Below the pieces are notes generated by a model, which was given only the letters and a program-made list of their open reading frames with translations, ran no database searches and was not told where the DNA came from. Below are positions 32,255 through 41,176 of a stretch of DNA of 64,000 nt, piece by piece (position 1 is the stretch's first letter; the number at the start of each line of letters is the position of its first letter). Both the position numbers and the translations under genes were made by a program. Origin of the DNA: Fimbriiglobus ruber (lineage in GTDB: Bacteria > Planctomycetota > Planctomycetia > Gemmatales > Gemmataceae); assembly GCF_002197845.1 (NCBI RefSeq), contig NZ_NIDE01000014.1, forward strand, positions 1,240,001-1,304,000, read 5' to 3'.

Positions 32255-32345
32255 GCCGAACGCCCAAGCTCAGCCGCCCCGCCGCTCAAGCGACCCCACT
32301 ACGATAACGCCGTCACGCGGCGGGGTCTGCTGCAGCGCCTTGTTC
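32255..32345 (-). other. attC site 5 (of cassette 5), cut in its R'' box by IS110b
   Basis: GCCGAAC at 32255, then the inverted pair CAGCCGCCCCGCCGC / GCGGCGGGG-T-CTGCTG with an unpaired T, then CAGCGCCTTGTTC up to the insertion. The remaining GGCGCGCC lies at 34206 on the other side. This is the array's distal attC still carrying both stems. Confidence 0.75.
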
Positions 32346-34205
32346 AACGTGCGGCCGGGCCGCCCGCTGTCGCCAGGAACTTGGGGGCGAGCCCGCCCGG
32401 TCGTATCTCTGACTCCGCGGGCGGTGACCGATCCCGTCTCGTTTCTGGTGTCCCGAGCGTTGCGCTCGTCCCGTTTGTTCGATTGGGAGGGGGAGCGTTG
32501 TCGGCTCATGTCATGGCGACCACCCGGGCGGACATCCCGCGTGTGGATCCCGTTGGGACGGCTGATCCCCGTGCCGACTCCCCCGCCGCCCGCACTTCGT
32601 CACCCGCACCATTGTGGACCCGAACAGGACCCCTCGCAAGTCGGAAGTTGCGCCCCCCACGACCCCCGCACCGGCCGAGGCATCCGGCCGCCTGGCCGCA
32701 GACCCGGTCCCCGGCCGGCGGGCCGCCGGGATCGATGTCGGGGACGCCACCCACTGGGTGTGCGTCGACGCCGCCCCGGACGGCGGGGACACGGTCCGCG
32801 AATTCCCGGCCCACACCCCCGGGGTCCGCCAACTCGTCGCCTGGCTGATCGCGTGCGGGGTCACCACCGTCGCCCTCGAAGCCAGCGGGGCGTACGGCCA
32901 GGTCCTGTTCCTGACCCTCCTGGAGGCCGGCCTCGATGTCCTCATGACGGCCCCCCACTTCACCCGCCAGATCAAGGGCCGGCCGAAGACCGACCGCCGC
33001 GACTGCCAGTGGATCCAGCGCCTCCACCAGCACGGCATGCTCCCGTCCGTGTTCCAACCCGACGACCCCACCCACACCCTCCGCGACTACGTCCGCCAGC
33101 GGGCCAACCTGGTCCGCTTGAGCGCCCATCACATCCAGCGGATGCAGAAGGCCCTGGCCCTGATGAACCTCAAGCTCACCCGGGTGGTCGGGGACGTGAC
33201 CGGGGTGACCGGCCTCAAGATCCTCCGGGCCATCGCCGCCGGCGAGCGGGATCCCAACGTCCTGGCCGCCTTCCGGGACCGCCGGTGCCGGCACACGGCG
33301 GCCGACATCGCGACCGCCCTGGACGGCCGGTACCGGCCCGAGCACGTGACCGAGTTGCGGCTCTGCCTGAAGATGTGGGACGCCTACCAGGAGGCCATCG
33401 CCGACCTCGACCCGAGCATCGCCGCCCACCTCCGCGAGATGCGGCGGGCGAGCACCCTGCCGCCCCTCCCCAAGCAACCCCGGGTCCGCGGGCGGAAGCC
33501 CCACGACCCGAAGTTCGACGTCCGCGAAGCCCTGTACCTGGCGACCGGGGTTGACCTGACGGCCATCGACGGGATCGACGCCATTCACGCCCTCACCCTG
33601 GTCAGCGAGTTGGGCTCCGATTTCACCAAGTGGCCGACCATCCAGCACTTCACCAGTTGGCTCGGCCTGTGCCCGAACGGGAAGAAGACGGGCGGCAAGG
33701 TGCCGTCGAGCCACACCCGGAAGGGCAAGAACCGGGCGGCCGCCGCCCTCCGGTTGGCGGCCTGGAGTCTGATGCGGAGTACGAGTGCCCTGGGCGCATA
33801 CCTGCGGCGGCAGCGGGGGCGGTTGGGGAGCCCGAAGGCGATCACGGCGACGGCCCACAAGCTGGCCCGGATCGTGTACGCCCTGCTGCGACACGGGGTC
33901 GGGTATGTGAAAGAGACGGCCGAGGCCCACGCGGACGAGGTCCGCCGGAAGATGGAGAAGCAGTTCCACCGCCGGGCCAAGGAGCTGGGGTACGAGGTCC
34001 GGAAGATCGAACCCGCCACGCCGGCCCCCGCGGTGGTGACCTGAGACCGGGGACACGCCGAACCGAAGGGAGGTGTTGAGGCCCCAACGACCGATCGCCG
34101 GAATTCGCGGGACACCGACGATGTCGGCCGCCCGTGGGAGGGTGCGCGCGGACAGACCAACCACACGGACATCAACACTCACGACTCATTTGAAGTTCCT
34201 GGGGC
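32346..34205 (+). mobile_element. IS110-family element, type b, inserted in attC site 5
   Basis: The element separates CTTGTTC from GGCGCGCCTTTA, which are contiguous (CTTGTTC-GGCGCGCC) at the attC end of cassette 1. Like other IS110s it lacks inverted repeats. It has ~270 bp of 5' non-coding sequence and ~160 bp after the gene. A CGAGCG-TTG-CGCTCG hairpin sits in the 5' part, but I could not match guide-like sequences to this target. Confidence 0.75.
32614..34044 (+). CDS. IS110-family transposase (DEDD recombinase), type b
   Basis: 476 aa, only distantly related to the three type-a copies. RuvC-like DEDD contexts: AAGIDVGDATHWV, VALEASGAYG and KTDRRDCQWIQRL. C-terminal transposase_20-type region IDGIDAIHALTLVSEL, FTSWLGLCPNGKKTGG, and the Ser context VPSSHTRKGKNRAA. 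It is intact. The longer C-terminal tail (RRKMEKQFHRRAKELGYEV) is like that of some long IS110 members. It is transcribed opposite to the cassette genes. Confidence 0.88.
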   Translation: MDPNRTPRKSEVAPPTTPAPAEASGRLAADPVPGRRAAGIDVGDATHWVCVDAAPDGGDTVREFPAHTPGVRQLVAWLIACGVTTVALEASGAYGQVLFLTLLEAGLDVLMTAPHFTRQIKGRPKTDRRDCQWIQRLHQHGMLPSVFQPDDPTHTLRDYVRQRANLVRLSAHHIQRMQKALALMNLKLTRVVGDVTGVTGLKILRAIAAGERDPNVLAAFRDRRCRHTAADIATALDGRYRPEHVTELRLCLKMWDAYQEAIADLDPSIAAHLREMRRASTLPPLPKQPRVRGRKPHDPKFDVREALYLATGVDLTAIDGIDAIHALTLVSELGSDFTKWPTIQHFTSWLGLCPNGKKTGGKVPSSHTRKGKNRAAAALRLAAWSLMRSTSALGAYLRRQRGRLGSPKAITATAHKLARIVYALLRHGVGYVKETAEAHADEVRRKMEKQFHRRAKELGYEVRKIEPATPAPAVVT

Positions 34206-34494: not shown

Positions 34495-34580
34495 GCCGAA
34501 CGGCCGAGCTCAGCAGCCCCGCCGCTCGAACAACTCCACTATTGTAGCGCCGTCATGCGGCGGGGTCTGCTGCAGCGTTT
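34495..34580 (-). other. attC site 4 (of cassette 4), interrupted by IS110a copy 1
   Basis: GCCGAAC, then AGCTCAGCAGCCCCGCCGC, a ~20-base loop segment and GCGGCGGGG-T-CTGCTGCAGCG, broken at 34581 by the element. The other end CCTTGTTCGGC is at 35827-35837. The unpaired T lies on the plus strand, which is the bottom strand relative to the cassettes. That is where attC sites carry extrahelical bases. Confidence 0.82.
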
Positions 34581-34765
34581 CACATGTTACTGTGAAGTAG
34601 TCGTGAGGACGAGCCCGGCGGTCGGATAACCGCATGCAGCGGATGAGGCTCCGACCTCGTGAACAAGGTCGCGGACCGACCGCCGGCGCTCCTCGACTTC
34701 GGACGCTACCCTGCGGGCCACCCCGTGTGGACCCCGCATTCGTGAAGCTGTAAGGGAGGGACGCC
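34581..34765 (+). ncRNA. Bridge-RNA-like region of IS110a copy 1
   Basis: Almost identical to the intact copy at 39911-40095. Presumptive target guides TGCAGCG (34635-34641) and GAACAAGG lie on opposite sides of an internal loop closed by CGGTCGG/CCGACCG and capped by GAGG/CCTC. Confidence 0.55.
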
Positions 34766-35816
34766 ATGGGCACCACCACCACGACCACGTTCGTCGGCAT
34801 CGACGTCAGCAAGAAGACCCTCGACGCGTGCCTCCTGACCCCGGACGGGAAGGCCCGCGACCACGCCTTCGCGAACGACCCGGACGGGCACGCGGCCCTG
34901 GTCGCGTGGGTCGACGGGCACGCGAGCGGGGCCGACGTCCACTACGGGATGGAGTCGACCGGCGGGTACGAGGATGCTCTCGCCACCCACCTGCACGCAG
35001 CCGCCCGGCGGGTCAGTGTGATCAACCCGGTCCGGGTCAAGTACGCCGGGGTCGTCCGCGGGCGGGGAACAAGACGGACAAGGCCGACGCCCGCCTGATC
35101 GCCGGGTACGTCCGCGATCACCGCCCCCCGGCCTGGGTCCCGCCGACCCCCGCGGTCCGCGAACTCCAGGCCCTGGTCCGCCGCCGGGACGACGTCCGGG
35201 CCCTAGCCGCGCAAGAAAAACGCGGCTCGATAGCCCGCTCCTGACCCCGGCCGCCCGCAAGTCCGTGGCCCGCGTCATCAAGCTCCTGGGCAAGGAGGCC
35301 GACGCCATGCAGGCCGCCGCCGACGCTCTCATCGCGGCCACCCCGGAGATGGCCGCCGACCGGGTTCTGCTGGCGTCCATCCCCGGAGTCGGGGACCAGA
35401 CCGCGTCGACCGTCCTGGCCGAACTCCCGCCCGTCGCCCACATCCCGTCGGCCCAGGCGGCGGCCGCGTACGCCGGGTTGGCCCCCCGGGAGCACCGGAG
35501 CGGGACCAGTGTCCGCACCCGCACCCGCCTGTCCAAGACCGGGAACGCCCGGCTCCGGAAGGCCCTGTACCTGCCGACCCTAACGGCGATCCGGTTCAAC
35601 CCCCTGTTGAAACGGTTCTATGATCGCCTGGTGGCCGCCGGGAAGGCCAAGATGCAAGCCGTCGGGGCGTGCATGCGGAAGTTGGTCATGATCTGCTACG
35701 GGGTCCTCAAGAACCGGGCTCCGTTCGACCCGGCGTGGAGCATGGTTCGGCCGCCGGTCGGGGGTGCGCCCGACCATCCCCGACCGGCGGATGAATCATG
35801 CGTTTTTGCCCCTTGA
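34766..35816 (+). pseudogene. IS110-family transposase, type a, copy 1, frameshifted
   Basis: Same protein as copy 3, but one G is missing near 35063, one A near 35217 and one C near 35777. The first loss turns GRGNKTDKADAR into GRGTRRTRP; the last changes the C-terminus to RPADESCVFAP. All three are in homopolymers. It is non-functional as written, but could be intact if these are read errors. Confidence 0.85.
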
Positions 35817-36275
35817 CAACACGCTACCTTGTTCGGCGTCTGGTGTCGCGGGGAACTCCCACAGCACGACCTCCGGCGGGATCGGCTCCGGGTGCAACCG
35901 GCACCAGTGGTAAGCGAGCCCGTCCAGCCGAAACATCGCCTCGTACAACCCGGCGTAGTCCTGCGTCTCGCGGTCCATCCAGCGATGCAGGTGGGCGAAC
36001 GTCCCGCGGACAAACTCGGCGACCCAACCGCCCATCGTCCCGTCGCAGAGGTGCCGGGCGACGAACTCCTCGCACGCCGCGAACAGCTCCGGCTTGTCGT
36101 CCCAGTTGGCCCCAGCATTCCGCACTTCCCAAAACAGCGTGGACGCCGCCACTAAGAGCTGCCCTTGGCGCGATGTTGCCGGGCTGAACATGTCCTCTGG
36201 GACCAACCGCTTGAGCAGTTTGTCGCACCAGACCAGCCAAGCGGGGTCCGGCCCGTTGGGATACTCGTCGTCCAC
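35796..36275 (-). CDS. Integron cassette 4 protein, tail rewritten by IS110a
   Basis: About 159 aa from a GTG at 36275 (MDDEYPNGPDPAWL). Native sequence runs to about PATPD, then the frame enters the attC R'' box (AEQG) and continues into the IS110 right end as SVLSRGKNA before stopping. Without the insertion it would have ended within attC. It has a helical, tryptophan-rich composition (LVWCDKLLKRLVPEDMF, FAHLHRWMDRETQDYAGL). No family recognised. Confidence 0.62.
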   Translation of the reverse strand: MDDEYPNGPDPAWLVWCDKLLKRLVPEDMFSPATSRQGQLLVAASTLFWEVRNAGANWDDKPELFAACEEFVARHLCDGTMGGWVAEFVRGTFAHLHRWMDRETQDYAGLYEAMFRLDGLAYHWCRLHPEPIPPEVVLWEFPATPDAEQGSVLSRGKNA

Positions 36276-36290: not shown

Positions 36291-36376
36291 GCCGAACGCC
36301 CAAGCTCAGCAGCCCCGCCGCTCGAGCGACCACGCCCATACGACGCCGTCACGCGGCGGGGTCTGCTGCAGCGCCT
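36291..36376 (-). other. attC site 3 (of cassette 3), interrupted by IS110a copy 2
   Basis: GCCGAAC, AAGCTCAGCAGCCCCGCCGC, loop, GCGGCGGGG-T-CTGCTGCAGCGCCT, then the element. The junction here reads GCAGCGCCT-CACATG, giving the clearest left breakpoint. The other side, CCTTGTTCGGC, is at 39184-39194. Confidence 0.82.
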
Positions 36377-36424
36377 CACATGTTACTGTGAAGTAGTCGT
36401 GAGGACGAGCCGGCGGTCGGATAA

Positions 36425-37967
36425 TGTCACGCCCCATTAGAAATGTCCGGGGTTTGGCCCCAATAGAAATGTCCTCCCCCCGGGACATATTTCCACTCAT
36501 CATAGACGTTTTCGCCAAGGATGATTTGGAGCTGGACGGTACGATCGCTTCGGGTTATCTACCTCCTCGCCGCCGGAAGGATAGGGCTCCGCAGGAGTGC
36601 GACCCGAGCGTCCGGCAGTCGGCTGCATGCCCGCGGGACGGGAGTCCTTGACCGGCTCCCGTCCCGTCGTCTCCGCACTGGCATCGGCCGCTGATGCGCT
36701 AAACTCCGGGGTTTGGGGCAGAGCCCCCAAGGCTGCCCCCCACGGTGATCTCCTGGTACGGCAAATGACGCTTCCCGAACCGAATGTGCAGCGTCCCATC
36801 CAGTCTCTGCTCAATCACCACCCGGCCGCCACGCTCTCCCGGGTACGCTGGCGGCAACAATTGGTAGAACGTATTCGCGAAACGCACCACGTAGTCGTTG
36901 CTCACCACCCGCTCGCTCTGAATCGACAGGATCGACGCCAGCTTGTGATCTCGACCCAACGGTCGATGGGCATCGTTTGGCTGACGCGCCGGCTTGGCGA
37001 ACCGCTTGTTGTGGTCGGGAAGGAGTTTCGCCAACAACGCGTTGGCGTCCTCGCAGGTCGTGACCTTGGCCAACCGCAGTTCCTTGACCCACCGATCCTG
37101 AGCCGTGCCAAACGAACGCTCGACACGTCCCTTCGCCTGGGGACTGTGCGCCCGAATCAACTCTATGGCCAGTTCGCCGAGCGCTCGGCCAAACTGCGTT
37201 TGCGCGTCGGGATCGGCGAGCGGACGTCCCTTCTCGTGCGGCTCGAAGATGCTGTGTCGATCCGTGTAAACCGCCAGCGGTCGGCCGTATTTCCGCAGCC
37301 AGACCCCCAACAAATCCAGGTGCGATTCCACGCTCCCATGCCGGTAAAACTTCGCTTCGACGCGGCTGGTGGCGTCATCGATCATGGTGATCAGAACGAT
37401 CGTCTCGCCGCGACCCTCCAGCCACTCATGCACCGAGGCGTCCATCTGCACCAACTCGCCCAAACAAGCCCGTCGCGGCCGACGACTGCGATGCGGGTCA
37501 CGGCGACGTTGGCGTTCCCACAAGCCCTCGGCCAGCAACCAGCGACGCAGCGTTTCGACGCCCACCTTCAACCCTTCTTCCGCCAACTTCTCGCACGCGA
37601 AGGTGGGGCCGAAGTCGCGGTAACGCTGGCGGTACGCCGCCAGCACCTGCGTTCGCAGCTTGGCTTCCAGGCAGCGATTCGACGGCTGACCTCGAAGGCC
37701 ATGCACCAGGGCGCTGTCACCCTGGGTCTTCAGTTTGCCCTTCAGTCGCCGGACCTGACGCGCGCTCAACTTCAACAAACCAGCGGCTTCCGTAACCGTC
37801 CGATCTCCCGATACCACCGCCTTCAGAATCGCCAAAACGTCACGCTCGCGCTGACTCATGGCTAGAATGCCCCAATCTTGTAGCTCGGTAGACATACGTC
37901 CTCCTTGGCATGAACAAGGAGGACATTTCTAACGAGTTAAGGCCGGACATTTCTAATGTGTTTCAAC
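36425..37967 (-). mobile_element. IS1202-like (ISNCY) element with 17-bp target duplication
   Basis: Both ends carry CATTAGAAATGTCCGG and a second TAGAAATGTCCTCC box in inverted orientation. It is flanked by AGCCGGCGGTCGGATAA at 36408-36424 and 37968-37984. Long duplications of this size are known in the IS1202 family. It sits in the 5' non-coding part of IS110a copy 2, and the duplication rebuilds that element's first stem. Confidence 0.85.
36699..37895 (-). CDS. IS1202/ISNCY-type transposase
   Basis: 398 aa from 37895, or 386 from the second Met (MSQRERDVLAIL). The N-terminal HTH pair reads RTVTEAAGLLKLSARQVRRLKGKLK. The integrase-core DDE contexts are LVQMDASVHEWLEG, VYTDRHSIFE and KGRVERSFGTAQDRWVKEL. 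The C-terminus has SNDYVVRFANTFYQLLP, common in this family. It is intact. Confidence 0.85.
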   Translation of the reverse strand: MSTELQDWGILAMSQRERDVLAILKAVVSGDRTVTEAAGLLKLSARQVRRLKGKLKTQGDSALVHGLRGQPSNRCLEAKLRTQVLAAYRQRYRDFGPTFACEKLAEEGLKVGVETLRRWLLAEGLWERQRRRDPHRSRRPRRACLGELVQMDASVHEWLEGRGETIVLITMIDDATSRVEAKFYRHGSVESHLDLLGVWLRKYGRPLAVYTDRHSIFEPHEKGRPLADPDAQTQFGRALGELAIELIRAHSPQAKGRVERSFGTAQDRWVKELRLAKVTTCEDANALLAKLLPDHNKRFAKPARQPNDAHRPLGRDHKLASILSIQSERVVSNDYVVRFANTFYQLLPPAYPGERGGRVVIEQRLDGTLHIRFGKRHLPYQEITVGGSLGGSAPNPGV

Positions 37968-37984
37968 AGCCGGCGGTCGGATAA

Positions 37985-38120
37985 CCGCATGCAGCGGATG
38001 AGGCTCCGACCTCGTGAACAAGGTCGCGGACCGACCGCCGGCGCTCCTCGACTTCGGACGCTACCCTGCGGGCCACCCCGTGTGGACCCCGCATTCGTGA
38101 AGCTGTAAGGGAGGGACGCC
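37985..38120 (+). ncRNA. Bridge-RNA-like region of IS110a copy 2
   Basis: Same guides as in copy 3. The upstream stem strand CGGTCGG is provided by the right copy of the IS1202-like target duplication (37968-37984), so the fold could survive although the native upstream end is 1.5 kb away. Confidence 0.5.
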
Positions 38121-39151
38121 ATGGGCACCACCACCACGACCACGTTCGTCGGCATCGACGTCAGCAAGAAGACCCTCGACGCGTGCCTCCTGACCCCGGA
38201 CGGGAAGGCCCGCGACCACGCCTTCGCGAACGACCCGGACGGGCACGCGGCCCTGGTCGCGTGGGTCGACGGGCACGCGAGCGGGGCCGACGTCCACTAC
38301 GGGATGGAGTCGACCGGCGGGTACGAGGATGCTCTCGCCACCCACCTGCACGCAGCCGCCCGGCGGGTCAGTGTGATCAACCCGGTCCGGGTCAAGTACG
38401 CCGGGGTCGTCCGCGGGCGGGGGAACAAGACGGACAAGGCCGACGCCCGCCTGATCGCCGGGTACGTCCGCGATCACCGCCCCCGGCCTGGGTCCCGCCG
38501 ACCCCCGCGGTCCGCGAACTCCAGGCCCTGGTCCGCCGCCGGGACGACGTCCGGGCCCTAGCCGCGCAAGAAAAAACGCGGCTCGATAGCCCGCTCCTGA
38601 CCCCGGCCGCCCGCAAGTCCGTGGCCCGCGTCATCAAGCTCCTGGGCAAGGAGGCCGACGCCATGCAGGCCGCCGCCGACGCTCTCATCGCGGCCACCCC
38701 GGAGATGGCCGCCGACCGGGTTCTGCTGGCGTCCATCCCCGGAGTCGGGGACCAGACCGCGTCGACCGTCCTGGCCGAACTCCCGCCCGTCGCCCACATC
38801 CCGTCGGCCCAGGCGGCGGCCGCGTACGCCGGGTTGGCCCCCCGGGAGCACCGGAGCGGGACCAGTGTCCGCACCCGCACCCGCCTGTCCAAGACCGGGA
38901 ACGCCCGGCTCCGGAAGGCCCTGTACCTGCCGACCCTAACGGCGATCCGGTTCAACCCCCTGTTGAAACGGTTCTATGATCGCCTGGTGGCCGCCGGGAA
39001 GGCCAAGATGCAAGCCGTCGGGGCGTGCATGCGGAAGTTGGTCATGATCTGCTACGGGGTCCTCAAGAACCGGGCTCCGTTCGACCCGGCGTGGAGCATG
39101 GTTCGGCCGCCGGTCGGGGGTGCGCCCGACCATCCCCCGACCGGCGGATGA
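38121..39151 (+). pseudogene. IS110-family transposase, type a, copy 2, frameshifted
   Basis: Identical to copy 3 except for one C missing from a C run near 38482 (HRPPAWVPP becomes HRPRPGSRR). The frame then continues normally to the usual C-terminus at 39151. Confidence 0.86.
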
Positions 39152-39152
39152 A

Positions 39153-39503
39153 TCATGCGTTTTTGCCCCTTGACAACACGCTACCTTGTTCGGCGCTCCG
39201 AATCTCATCGCAAACCGCCTCGAACAGATCGAAATACCGCTCCTCAAGTGTCCCGGGAGGCAGTCCGAACGCGTCCCGGGTTATGGGCAGAGACAACGCA
39301 TCGGCGGCGTGGAATGCGATCGACTGGAAGTCGGTGAATACGTCCCTGGCGGTCCCCAAGTTACCGGCATTCCGCATCCCGTAGTCAGCAACCCAAAGCG
39401 AGTATACAAGTCGTTCCCAGGTCGCGAGGTGTTCAAACTCGTGTCGGGCCTTCTTCTGGATGACCCGATCGCCCTCTTCGATAACCCAGGTTTCGTTGTC
39501 CAT
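39153..39503 (-). CDS. Integron cassette 3 protein, tail rewritten by IS110a
   Basis: 116 aa from the ATG at 39503, 20 bp inside its R box at 39523-39529. The core (ATWERLVYSLWVADYGMRN, FQSIAFHAADALSLPI, ERYFDLFEAVCDEIR) is helical, with a faint DMP19/DUF4375-like look around ERLVYSLW. The frame passes through the R'' box as SAEQG and ends SVLSRGKNA inside IS110a, exactly like cassette 4. Function unknown. Confidence 0.62.
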   Translation of the reverse strand: MDNETWVIEEGDRVIQKKARHEFEHLATWERLVYSLWVADYGMRNAGNLGTARDVFTDFQSIAFHAADALSLPITRDAFGLPPGTLEERYFDLFEAVCDEIRSAEQGSVLSRGKNA

Positions 39504-39522: not shown

Positions 39523-39616
39523 GCCGAACGCCCAAGCTCAGCAGCCCCGCCGCTGGAGCAACTACACCCACATGGAGCCGTCATGCGGCGGGGTCTGCTG
39601 CAGCGCCTTGTTCGGC
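39523..39616 (-). other. attC site 2, intact
   Basis: 94 bp, the only uninterrupted attC. Outer boxes are GCCGAAC (39523-39529) and GTTCGGC (39610-39616). The inner stem is CAGCAGCCCCGCCGC / GCGGCGGGG-T-CTGCTG with one unpaired T, plus a second unpaired base in CTGCTG-C-AGC. The ~26-base central part is not conserved between sites. The fourth base of GTTCGGC departs from the canonical GTTRRRY. Confidence 0.88.
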
Positions 39617-39824: not shown

Positions 39825-39910
39825 GCCGAACGGCCAAGCTCAGCAGCCCCGCCGCTGGTGCGACCTAACCTATGAGGAGCCGTCATGCGGCGGGGTCTGC
39901 TGCAGCGCTT
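39825..39910 (-). other. attC site 1 (of cassette 1), interrupted by IS110a copy 3
   Basis: GCCGAAC, AAGCTCAGCAGCCCCGCCGC, loop, GCGGCGGGG-T-CTGCTGCAGCG, then the element at 39911. The other end CCTTGTTCGGC ends at 41170. It is the site nearest intI. Confidence 0.83.
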
Positions 39911-40095
39911 CACATGTTACTGTGAAGTAGTCGTGAGGACGAGCCCGGCGGTCGGACAACCGCATGCAGCGGATGAGGCTCCGACCTCGTGAACAAGGTC
40001 GCGGACCGACCGCCGGCGCTCCTCGACTTCGGACGCTACCCTGCGGGCCACCCCGTGTGGACCCCGTATTCGTGAAGCTGTAAGGGAGGGACGCC
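39911..40095 (+). ncRNA. Candidate bridge RNA of IS110a, programmed for attC
   Basis: A first hairpin is closed by CGGTCGG / CCGACCG and capped by GAGG-CTCCGA-CCTC. On its 5' side TGCAGCG (39965-39971) equals the attC left half. On its 3' side GAACAAGG (39991-39998) is the exact complement of the attC right half CCTTGTTC. In a second loop ACGCTACC (40033-40040) equals the element's right end plus core, and GTGTGG (40055-40060) pairs with five of six bases of CCTCAC at the left junction. This is the two-loop, four-guide layout established for IS110 bridge RNAs. The fold and guides are read from sequence; expression is not shown. Confidence 0.7.
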
Positions 40096-41127
40096 ATGGG
40101 CACCGTCACCACGACCGCGTTCGTCGGCATCGACGTCAGCAAGAAGACCCTCGACGCGTGCCTCCTGACCCCGGACGGGAAGGCCCGCGACCACGCCTTC
40201 GCGAACGACCCGGACGGGCACGCGGCCCTGGTCGCGTGGGTCGACGGGCACGCGAGCGGGGCCGACGTCCACTACGGGATGGAGTCGACCGGCGGGTACG
40301 AGGATGCTCTCGCCACCCACCTGCACGCAGCCGCCCGGCGGGTCAGTGTGATCAACCCGGTCCGGGTCAAGTACGCCGGGGTCGTCCGCGGGCGGGGGAA
40401 CAAGACGGACAAGGCCGACGCCCGCCTGATCGCCGGGTACGTCCGCGATCACCGCCCCCCGGCCTGGGTCCCGCCGACCCCCGCGGTCCGCGAACTCCAG
40501 GCCCTGGTCCGCCGCCGGGACGACGTCCGGGCCCTAGCCGCGCAAGAAAAAACGCGGCTCGATAGCCCGCTCCTGACCCCGGCCGCCCGCAAGTCCGTGG
40601 CCCGCGTCATCAAGCTCCTGGGCAAGGAGGCCGACGCCATGCAGGCCGCCGCCGACGCTCTCATCGCGGCCACCCCGGAGATGGCCGCCGACCGGGTTCT
40701 GCTGGCGTCCATCCCCGGAGTCGGGGACCAGACCGCGTCGACCGTCCTGGCCGAACTCCCGCCCGTCGCCCACATCCCGTCGGCCCAGGCGGCGGCCGCG
40801 TACGCCGGGTTGGCCCCCCGGGAGCACCGGAGCGGGACCAGTGTCCGCACCCGCACCCGCCTGTCCAAGACCGGGAACGCCCGGCTCCGGAAGGCCCTGT
40901 ACCTGCCGACCCTAACGGCGATCCGGTTCAACCCCCTGTTGAAACGGTTCTATGATCGCCTGGTGGCCGCCGGGAAGGCCAAGATGCAAGCCGTCGGGGC
41001 GTGCATGCGGAAGTTGGTCATGATCTGCTACGGGGTCCTCAAGAACCGGGCTCCGTTCGACCCGGCGTGGAGCATGGTTCGGCCGCCGGTCGGGGGTGCG
41101 CCCGACCATCCCCCGACCGGCGGATGA
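40096..41127 (+). CDS. IS110-family transposase (DEDD recombinase), type a, intact copy
   Basis: 343 aa. RuvC-like residues in FVGIDVSKKTLDACLL (Asp), YGMESTGGYED (Glu) and NKTDKADARLIAGY (Asp-Asp). The C-terminal domain has SIPGVGDQTASTVLAEL, AAAYAGLAPREHRSGTS with the nucleophile-type Ser, and GNARLRKALYLPTLTAIRFNP. GGGAGGG lies upstream of the ATG. It would use the adjacent RNA to join its circular form to attC. It is the only undamaged copy of three and could supply the others in trans. Confidence 0.92.
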   Translation: MGTVTTTAFVGIDVSKKTLDACLLTPDGKARDHAFANDPDGHAALVAWVDGHASGADVHYGMESTGGYEDALATHLHAAARRVSVINPVRVKYAGVVRGRGNKTDKADARLIAGYVRDHRPPAWVPPTPAVRELQALVRRRDDVRALAAQEKTRLDSPLLTPAARKSVARVIKLLGKEADAMQAAADALIAATPEMAADRVLLASIPGVGDQTASTVLAELPPVAHIPSAQAAAAYAGLAPREHRSGTSVRTRTRLSKTGNARLRKALYLPTLTAIRFNPLLKRFYDRLVAAGKAKMQAVGACMRKLVMICYGVLKNRAPFDPAWSMVRPPVGGAPDHPPTGG

Positions 41128-41176
41128 ATCATGCGTTTTTGCCCCTTGACAACACGCTACCTTGTTCGGCGCGCCT

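Follow-up and report, generated by a model that had tools for sequence, protein, structure and literature searches.

What directs an insertion sequence of the IS110 group into the attC site of an integron cassette? The question is raised by a locus of Fimbriiglobus ruber (GCF_002197845.1; genome size 12.36 Mb, 20 contigs), where such an element splits an attC site close to an integron integrase gene. The stretch analysed here, referred to as the window, comprises 64,000 nt (NZ_NIDE01000014.1, positions 1,240,001-1,304,000, forward strand). An earlier note on this DNA had proposed that the element encodes an RNA of the bridge type, with target guides corresponding to attC. We arrive at the same reading, to which we give a probability of about 0.9: the element would be an IS621/ISCro4-like member of the IS110 group, guided to attC by its own 5' bridge RNA, with every cassette as a target. 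At the level of sequence, this is borne out by the position of the element, the guides, the fold of the RNA region, the repeated insertion, the pattern of core bases and the covariation of the donor guide. The features are collected in Table 1.

Table 1. Features of the IS110-group element and the surrounding integron (positions in the window)
Feature	Position	Strand	Remarks
Intact attC, second	32255-32348		TGCAGCG-CC-TTGTTC
Second copy of the element, in attC	34580-35828	+	recombinase gene broken by frameshifts
Third copy of the element, in attC	36376-39185	+	interrupted by an ISNCY-type IS (transposase at 36699-37895); gene frameshifted
Intact attC	39523-39616		TGCAGCG-CC-TTGTTCGGC; empty-site reference
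Interrupted attC, left part	39825-39909		GCCGAACGGCC...GTCTGCTGCAGCG to left core CT, holds the left target; from sequence and intact neighbour attC
Left target TGCAGCG	39901-39907		base-by-base check
Left core CT	39908-39909		base-by-base check
IS110-group element	39910-41161	+	1252 bp including donor core CC; ends common to nine own-genome copies and homologues
Predicted bridge-RNA-coding 5' non-coding region	39910-40095	+	5' stem-loop, target-binding loop, donor-binding loop; from alignment and consensus fold
TACTGT	39918-39923		in left end (LE)
Left target guide TGCAGCG	39965-39971	+	same sense as left target; 7/7 match
Right target guide with core-pairing bases, GAACAAGG	39991-39998	+	reverse complement of CCTTGTTC; 6/6 against right target (RT) TTGTTC
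Left donor guide with core, ACGCTACC	40033-40040	+	equals element right end plus core; covaries with right end in homologues
GTGTGG	40055-40060	+	3' arm of variable apical hairpin in donor loop
Candidate right donor guide CGTGA with core-pairing AG (CGTGAAG)	40071-40077	+	faces left donor guide in internal loop
IS110 recombinase, 343 aa	40096-41127	+	DEDD_Tnp_IS110 and Transposase_20 domains
TTGACA	41146-41151	+	in right end (RE)
Right core CC	41160-41161		base-by-base check
Interrupted attC, right part	41162-41170		RT TTGTTC (41162-41167) and R box GTTCGGC; from sequence
Integron integrase intI, 355 aa	41591-42658	-	TIGR02249 446.5 bits (cut-off 265)

The element and its insertion site

The 3' end of intI points towards the cassette array and a set of attC sites lies beside the integrase gene, to its left. 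A base-by-base check places the start of the element at TCACATG (39910) and its end at ACGCTA-CC, with ACGCTA ending at 41159. It splits a single attC, leaving TGCAGCG and CT on its left and CC and TTGTTCGGC on its right; the 15-bp attC target sequence is TGCAGCGCCTTGTTC. In standard cassette orientation, which is the minus strand here, the insertion point is the R''/L'' end of attC, and the crossover box R' lies at the opposite end. Since this attC end is conserved within the array, every cassette offers a landing site, as had been suggested before.

The recombinase exceeds the profile cut-offs for PF01548 and PF02371 and matches NCBIfam NF033542, named 'IS110 family RNA-guided transposase', with 226.8 bits (cut-off 140). 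Its nearest relatives of solved structure are ISCro4 (9t56, E 1.8e-65) and IS621 (8wt6, E 1.2e-60), and the D, E, D/D and SG motifs line up with ISCro4. Homologues above approximately 60% identity were found within the Gemmataceae, a family with records including Limnoglobus roseus, and other Gemmataceae carry homologues at 64-79% identity. In a sample of 392 genomes from across the phylum, a close homologue was present in one, which is the F. ruber genome itself. Outside the phylum the nearest homologues have approximately 42% identity and lie on plasmids, with no integron annotated nearby in the one region inspected.

Insertion into attC is already known from elements of the IS1111 type, which have the same DEDD recombinase family and the same kind of target (PMC11187229), and one could assume that the F. 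ruber element belongs to this described group and takes its seekRNA from the 3' region. We regard this as very improbable. The long non-coding region of the element lies 5' of the recombinase gene (186 nt), whereas the 3' one measures approximately 33 nt, and inspection of the sequence at the element ends did not show long subterminal inverted repeats. In addition, the left (bottom-strand) guide precedes the right (top-strand) guide, which is the order of the IS110 group, and the nearest solved relatives are the two named above. Finally, a true IS1111-type element occurs in the same integrons, but at the opposite attC end.

The predicted bridge RNA

Ten 5' regions (the element and nine homologues) were aligned. 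In the consensus fold, the target stem is formed by columns 40-48 with 101-109 and encloses an internal loop in which TGCAGCG faces GAAC[AC]AG[GA]. The donor stem (columns 110-126 with 180-196) encloses a second internal loop, where ACGCTA[CT]C faces CGTGA. Changes on both sides were found in seven pairs, compared with 2.6 in shuffles (0/500), and the consensus fold beats all slid versions. Covariance folding with homologues, which the earlier note had put forward as a check, yields two guide loops. The fold of the single sequence is no better than that of shuffles (z = -0.81) and is uninformative in this GC-rich region. A search of Rfam gave no real match to any described RNA family.

Both target guides, TGCAGCG and the right guide listed in Table 1, stand as they were first read when checked base by base, and so does the identity of the donor-loop sequence with the right end. 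The match of the target guides to the insertion site recurs in all nine copies of the F. ruber genome and in homologues. A pair of this kind, with a 7-nt same-sense guide and a downstream 8-nt antisense guide, fits 32 of the 127,970 15-mers of the window (0.025%), of which 14 or more belong either to unoccupied attC sites or to copies of the element itself. The positions of handshake guides gave a mixed result.

One assignment had to be changed. GTGTGG, previously taken as the right donor guide, belongs to an apical hairpin (columns 137-145/158-166) that varies in length and sequence, and we reject it in this role. CGTGAAG is probably the right donor guide, as it fits better in position, pairing and conservation: CGTGA is retained opposite the left donor guide in nearly all homologues, and in this element GTGAAG is complementary to the left-junction sequence CT-TCAC. 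In most homologues CGTGA is followed by GC as the core-pairing bases; GC is also the left core of L076, L104, L105 and L165.

The stem of the donor loop (40020-40095) also involves the purine-rich sequence ahead of the start codon in its pairing, and the RNA fold could thereby mask the ribosome site of the recombinase itself.

Repeated insertion into attC

A DNA search detected nine elements in the F. ruber genome. All nine are flanked on both sides by attC and have the same position and orientation. A tenth, internally deleted remnant (L010) also lies in a divergent attC. Further homologues were found with a covariance model built in this analysis, and 16 insertions in seven other Gemmataceae genomes adjoin attC at the same place, each with at least one readable end; the degraded copies L157 and L167 additionally adjoin an attC end. 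A simple program for attC detection reported many sites that were not real, and attC status was therefore judged by eye from the flanks.

The exceptions to the attC position are all truncated or degraded (L150, L152 and the remnants L011, L013/L171 and L017). Homologues with the same guides outside attC had been named as the observation that would speak against attC targeting, and L150 (G113:C116:23270-23469) comes closest to it: the RNA region is intact, the left guide is the same and the left flank is not attC. However, this element is truncated and its gene is broken, and it therefore does not refute attC targeting. L013/L171 (G000:C2:254080-254300) and L017 are degraded, short derivatives that lack attC on the left and in which the left-guide region is a different one, TGCCGTGG; they are possibly a retargeted or decayed form.

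The arrays of the F. ruber genome (contigs C2, C14, C17 and C18) have nine occupied attC sites of this type against eight listed empty ones, an unusually heavy load. In the third copy, a 16-bp repeat (GCCGGCGGTCGGATAA) on either side of the ISNCY-type IS suggests the target duplication of the latter.

Correspondence of guides with targets and ends

The right target guide matches RT at six of six positions in nine of 13 elements and at five of six in the other four. Its variable base follows the host, being A in the lineage of the window, where targets have T, and C in the others, where targets have G: the F. ruber element has GAACAAGG at TTGTTC sites, and homologues elsewhere have GAACCAG[GA] at TGGTTC sites. 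In a pattern search, the home arrays showed TGCAGCG-NN-TTGTTC, while TGGTTC was the form in the listed G066 arrays and in the majority of those listed for G001 and G073. RT position 2 is T in eight of eight listed empty home-array sites and G in 24 of 24 sites of the G066 arrays, counts to be read in the light of the common ancestry of attC sites within one array. Swapping right target guides and RT between elements gave no significant difference (P = 0.15), there being essentially a single co-change, and we therefore do not claim a broad target covariation. The donor guide and the right end differ at 11 of 104 positions compared with 17.5 when swapped (P about 0.001), a significance mainly due to the L101 type, in which the right end is ACACCA and the guide ATACCA. 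The left target guide is looser in some homologues, with TGCCGCG or GGCAGCG instead of TGCAGCG. The homologues are related by descent, and the joint conservation of guides and site among them is therefore evidence that is not wholly independent. These comparisons suggest that guide and host attC type have remained in step.

The same observations bear on the possibility that it is protein contacts by which the recombinase reads attC, either as a folded hairpin or as a sequence, and that the resemblance of the guides is a by-product. Every insertion lies in attC, and site constancy alone cannot tell such contacts from RNA guidance. Nevertheless, this explanation is very improbable, since the guides stand at the expected facing positions of a covarying fold, the target guide fits a different attC type in each of two sets of hosts, donor guide and right end covary, and the close relatives IS621 and ISEc21 are RNA-guided. 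Least probable of all is a spread of the copies through shuffling of cassettes or through duplication of attC sites that were already occupied. In its favour, attC is a hot spot of recombination and the copies L005 and L007 have the same attC centre. Against it, the centres and neighbouring cassettes of the nine occupied sites mostly differ, which indicates separate insertion events, there are three left cores, and elements elsewhere occupy the attC types of their own genomes.

Core bases and a possible insertion cycle

The preferred reading, RNA-guided insertion, also accounts for the core bases. Because these vary among attC sites (TT, AT, CC and CT in the empty sites of the F. ruber genome), natural insertions reveal which core goes to which end. 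The left core of the nine copies is CT (four), TT (two) or CC (three), and the right core is CC in all nine; random repair of a mixed core would give CC on the right in all six non-CC cases with a chance of approximately 1.6%. In IS621 the top-strand cuts fall immediately 3' of the core (PMC11208158). With cuts at this position, the left junction should keep the core of the target and the right junction that of the donor, which matches the nine copies. The filled core types (CC, CT and TT) are those able to form normal or G-T pairs with the GG in the right target guide.

Nearly all homologues have TTGACA in RE. In a joined circle it would lie 18 bp upstream of TACTGT in LE, and TAnnnT is found at that spacing in 12 of 14 left ends. 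Junction promoters have been reported for IS110/IS1111 circles, and TTGACA and TACTGT would likely form the junction promoter of a circular form.

From these observations, the following cycle can be proposed. The 5' non-coding region would be transcribed into the bridge RNA, whose donor loop would pair with the RE-LE junction of the excised circle, and the circle itself might express both RNA and recombinase from the junction promoter. Directed by the RNA, the recombinase would cut each top strand immediately 3' of the 2-nt core, and the circle would insert into attC in one orientation, so that the core of the target comes to lie to its left and that of the donor (CC) to its right. Such an insertion may lock the cassette by parting R'' from the rest of attC.

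Relation to known elements

The earlier note held that selection for such a guide had not been described. This is too broad, since the IS1111 elements ISKpn4 and ISPst6 already show RNA-guided targeting of one attC end, with RNAs that match both target strands, and RNA-guided attC targeting has been predicted for ISPa25 (PMC11187229). For the IS1111-attC group that paper cites Tetu & Holmes (2008) and Post & Hall (2009). ISPa21 interrupts attC in blaGES-5 integrons (PMC11616780). Our literature search, which extended to few subscription journals and preprints, yielded no report of attC targeting by a 5' RNA in the IS110 group, nor any on planctomycetes. What seems to be newly seen here is thus the combination of an IS110-group element, a 5' RNA, the R'' end of attC and guides that track the attC of the host.

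With the IS1111-attC group (ISKpn4, ISPst6, ISPa25 and ISPa21) the element would share the RNA-guided insertion into one attC end. This group differs in its 3' RNA, subterminal inverted repeats and opposite guide order, and the end used by ISKpn4 may be the same or the other one. With IS621 and ISCro4 there is agreement in the homologous recombinase, the long and here predicted 5' RNA, the target and donor loops with a left and a right guide each, and the 2-nt core. However, the core is CC/YY here and CT there, and our element inserts into integron attC sites, theirs into sites of the REP type. Pairing of the right target guide would extend over 6 nt and the core, as in IS621/ISCro4 orthologues with a longer guide of this kind. 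ISEc21, also of the IS110 group, has the 5' RNA and the guide order in common with our element, but its target is a conserved codon region of IS3-family transposase genes. For ISEc21 a circle with a junction promoter is known, whereas here the promoter layout is read from the sequence.

The element and its homologues can be regarded as a natural experiment on the programming of bridge RNAs, in which the guides of one recombinase family match two attC types in different hosts. A practical gain is a further IS621/ISCro4-like recombinase, which combines a relaxed core with a long right target guide.

Companion elements at the same attC sites

The attC that holds L007 also carries, at its far end, an IS1111-type element of 353 aa (L178, G000:C18:71500-73042). 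Its ends adjoin GCCGAA and the remaining attC arm, which is the crossover point of the integrase, GCCGAA|C. Similar ends are present in G034 (two), G073 and G088 (loci including L174, L181 and L103). In contrast to the IS110 element, this companion lies at the opposite attC end and has its guide-like matches in a long 3' non-coding region, not in a 5' one. The 3' region contains CGGCCGAACG and a variable stretch, which in the F. ruber genome reads AGCTTGGG at its own attC CCCAAGCT. In G034 the stretch is AGCTTTGT at A[AT]AAAGCT, with about one mismatch, and in G073 and G088 it is AGCTGGGT at GACCCCGCT, with about one mismatch each. Compared by eye over five copies, this looks like host-tracking guidance here, too, and the companion probably belongs to the known IS1111-attC kind.

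It is a reasonable, if far from certain, assumption that in Gemmataceae RNA-guided insertion sequences of the IS110 and IS1111 types, perhaps together with a second IS110 lineage, settled independently at the two ends of attC with guides that track the host, so that the integron would be pressed from both ends and occupied cassettes would be frozen. For the integron cassettes of planctomycetes the findings on the IS110 element suggest a heavy load of RNA-guided parasites.

The second IS110 lineage (L172, 2805-4000; L095, 130-1320; genomes G088 and G002) is nested between the right end of the first element and the attC R box. Its 5' region contains GAACCAGC, which matches GC-TGGTTC.
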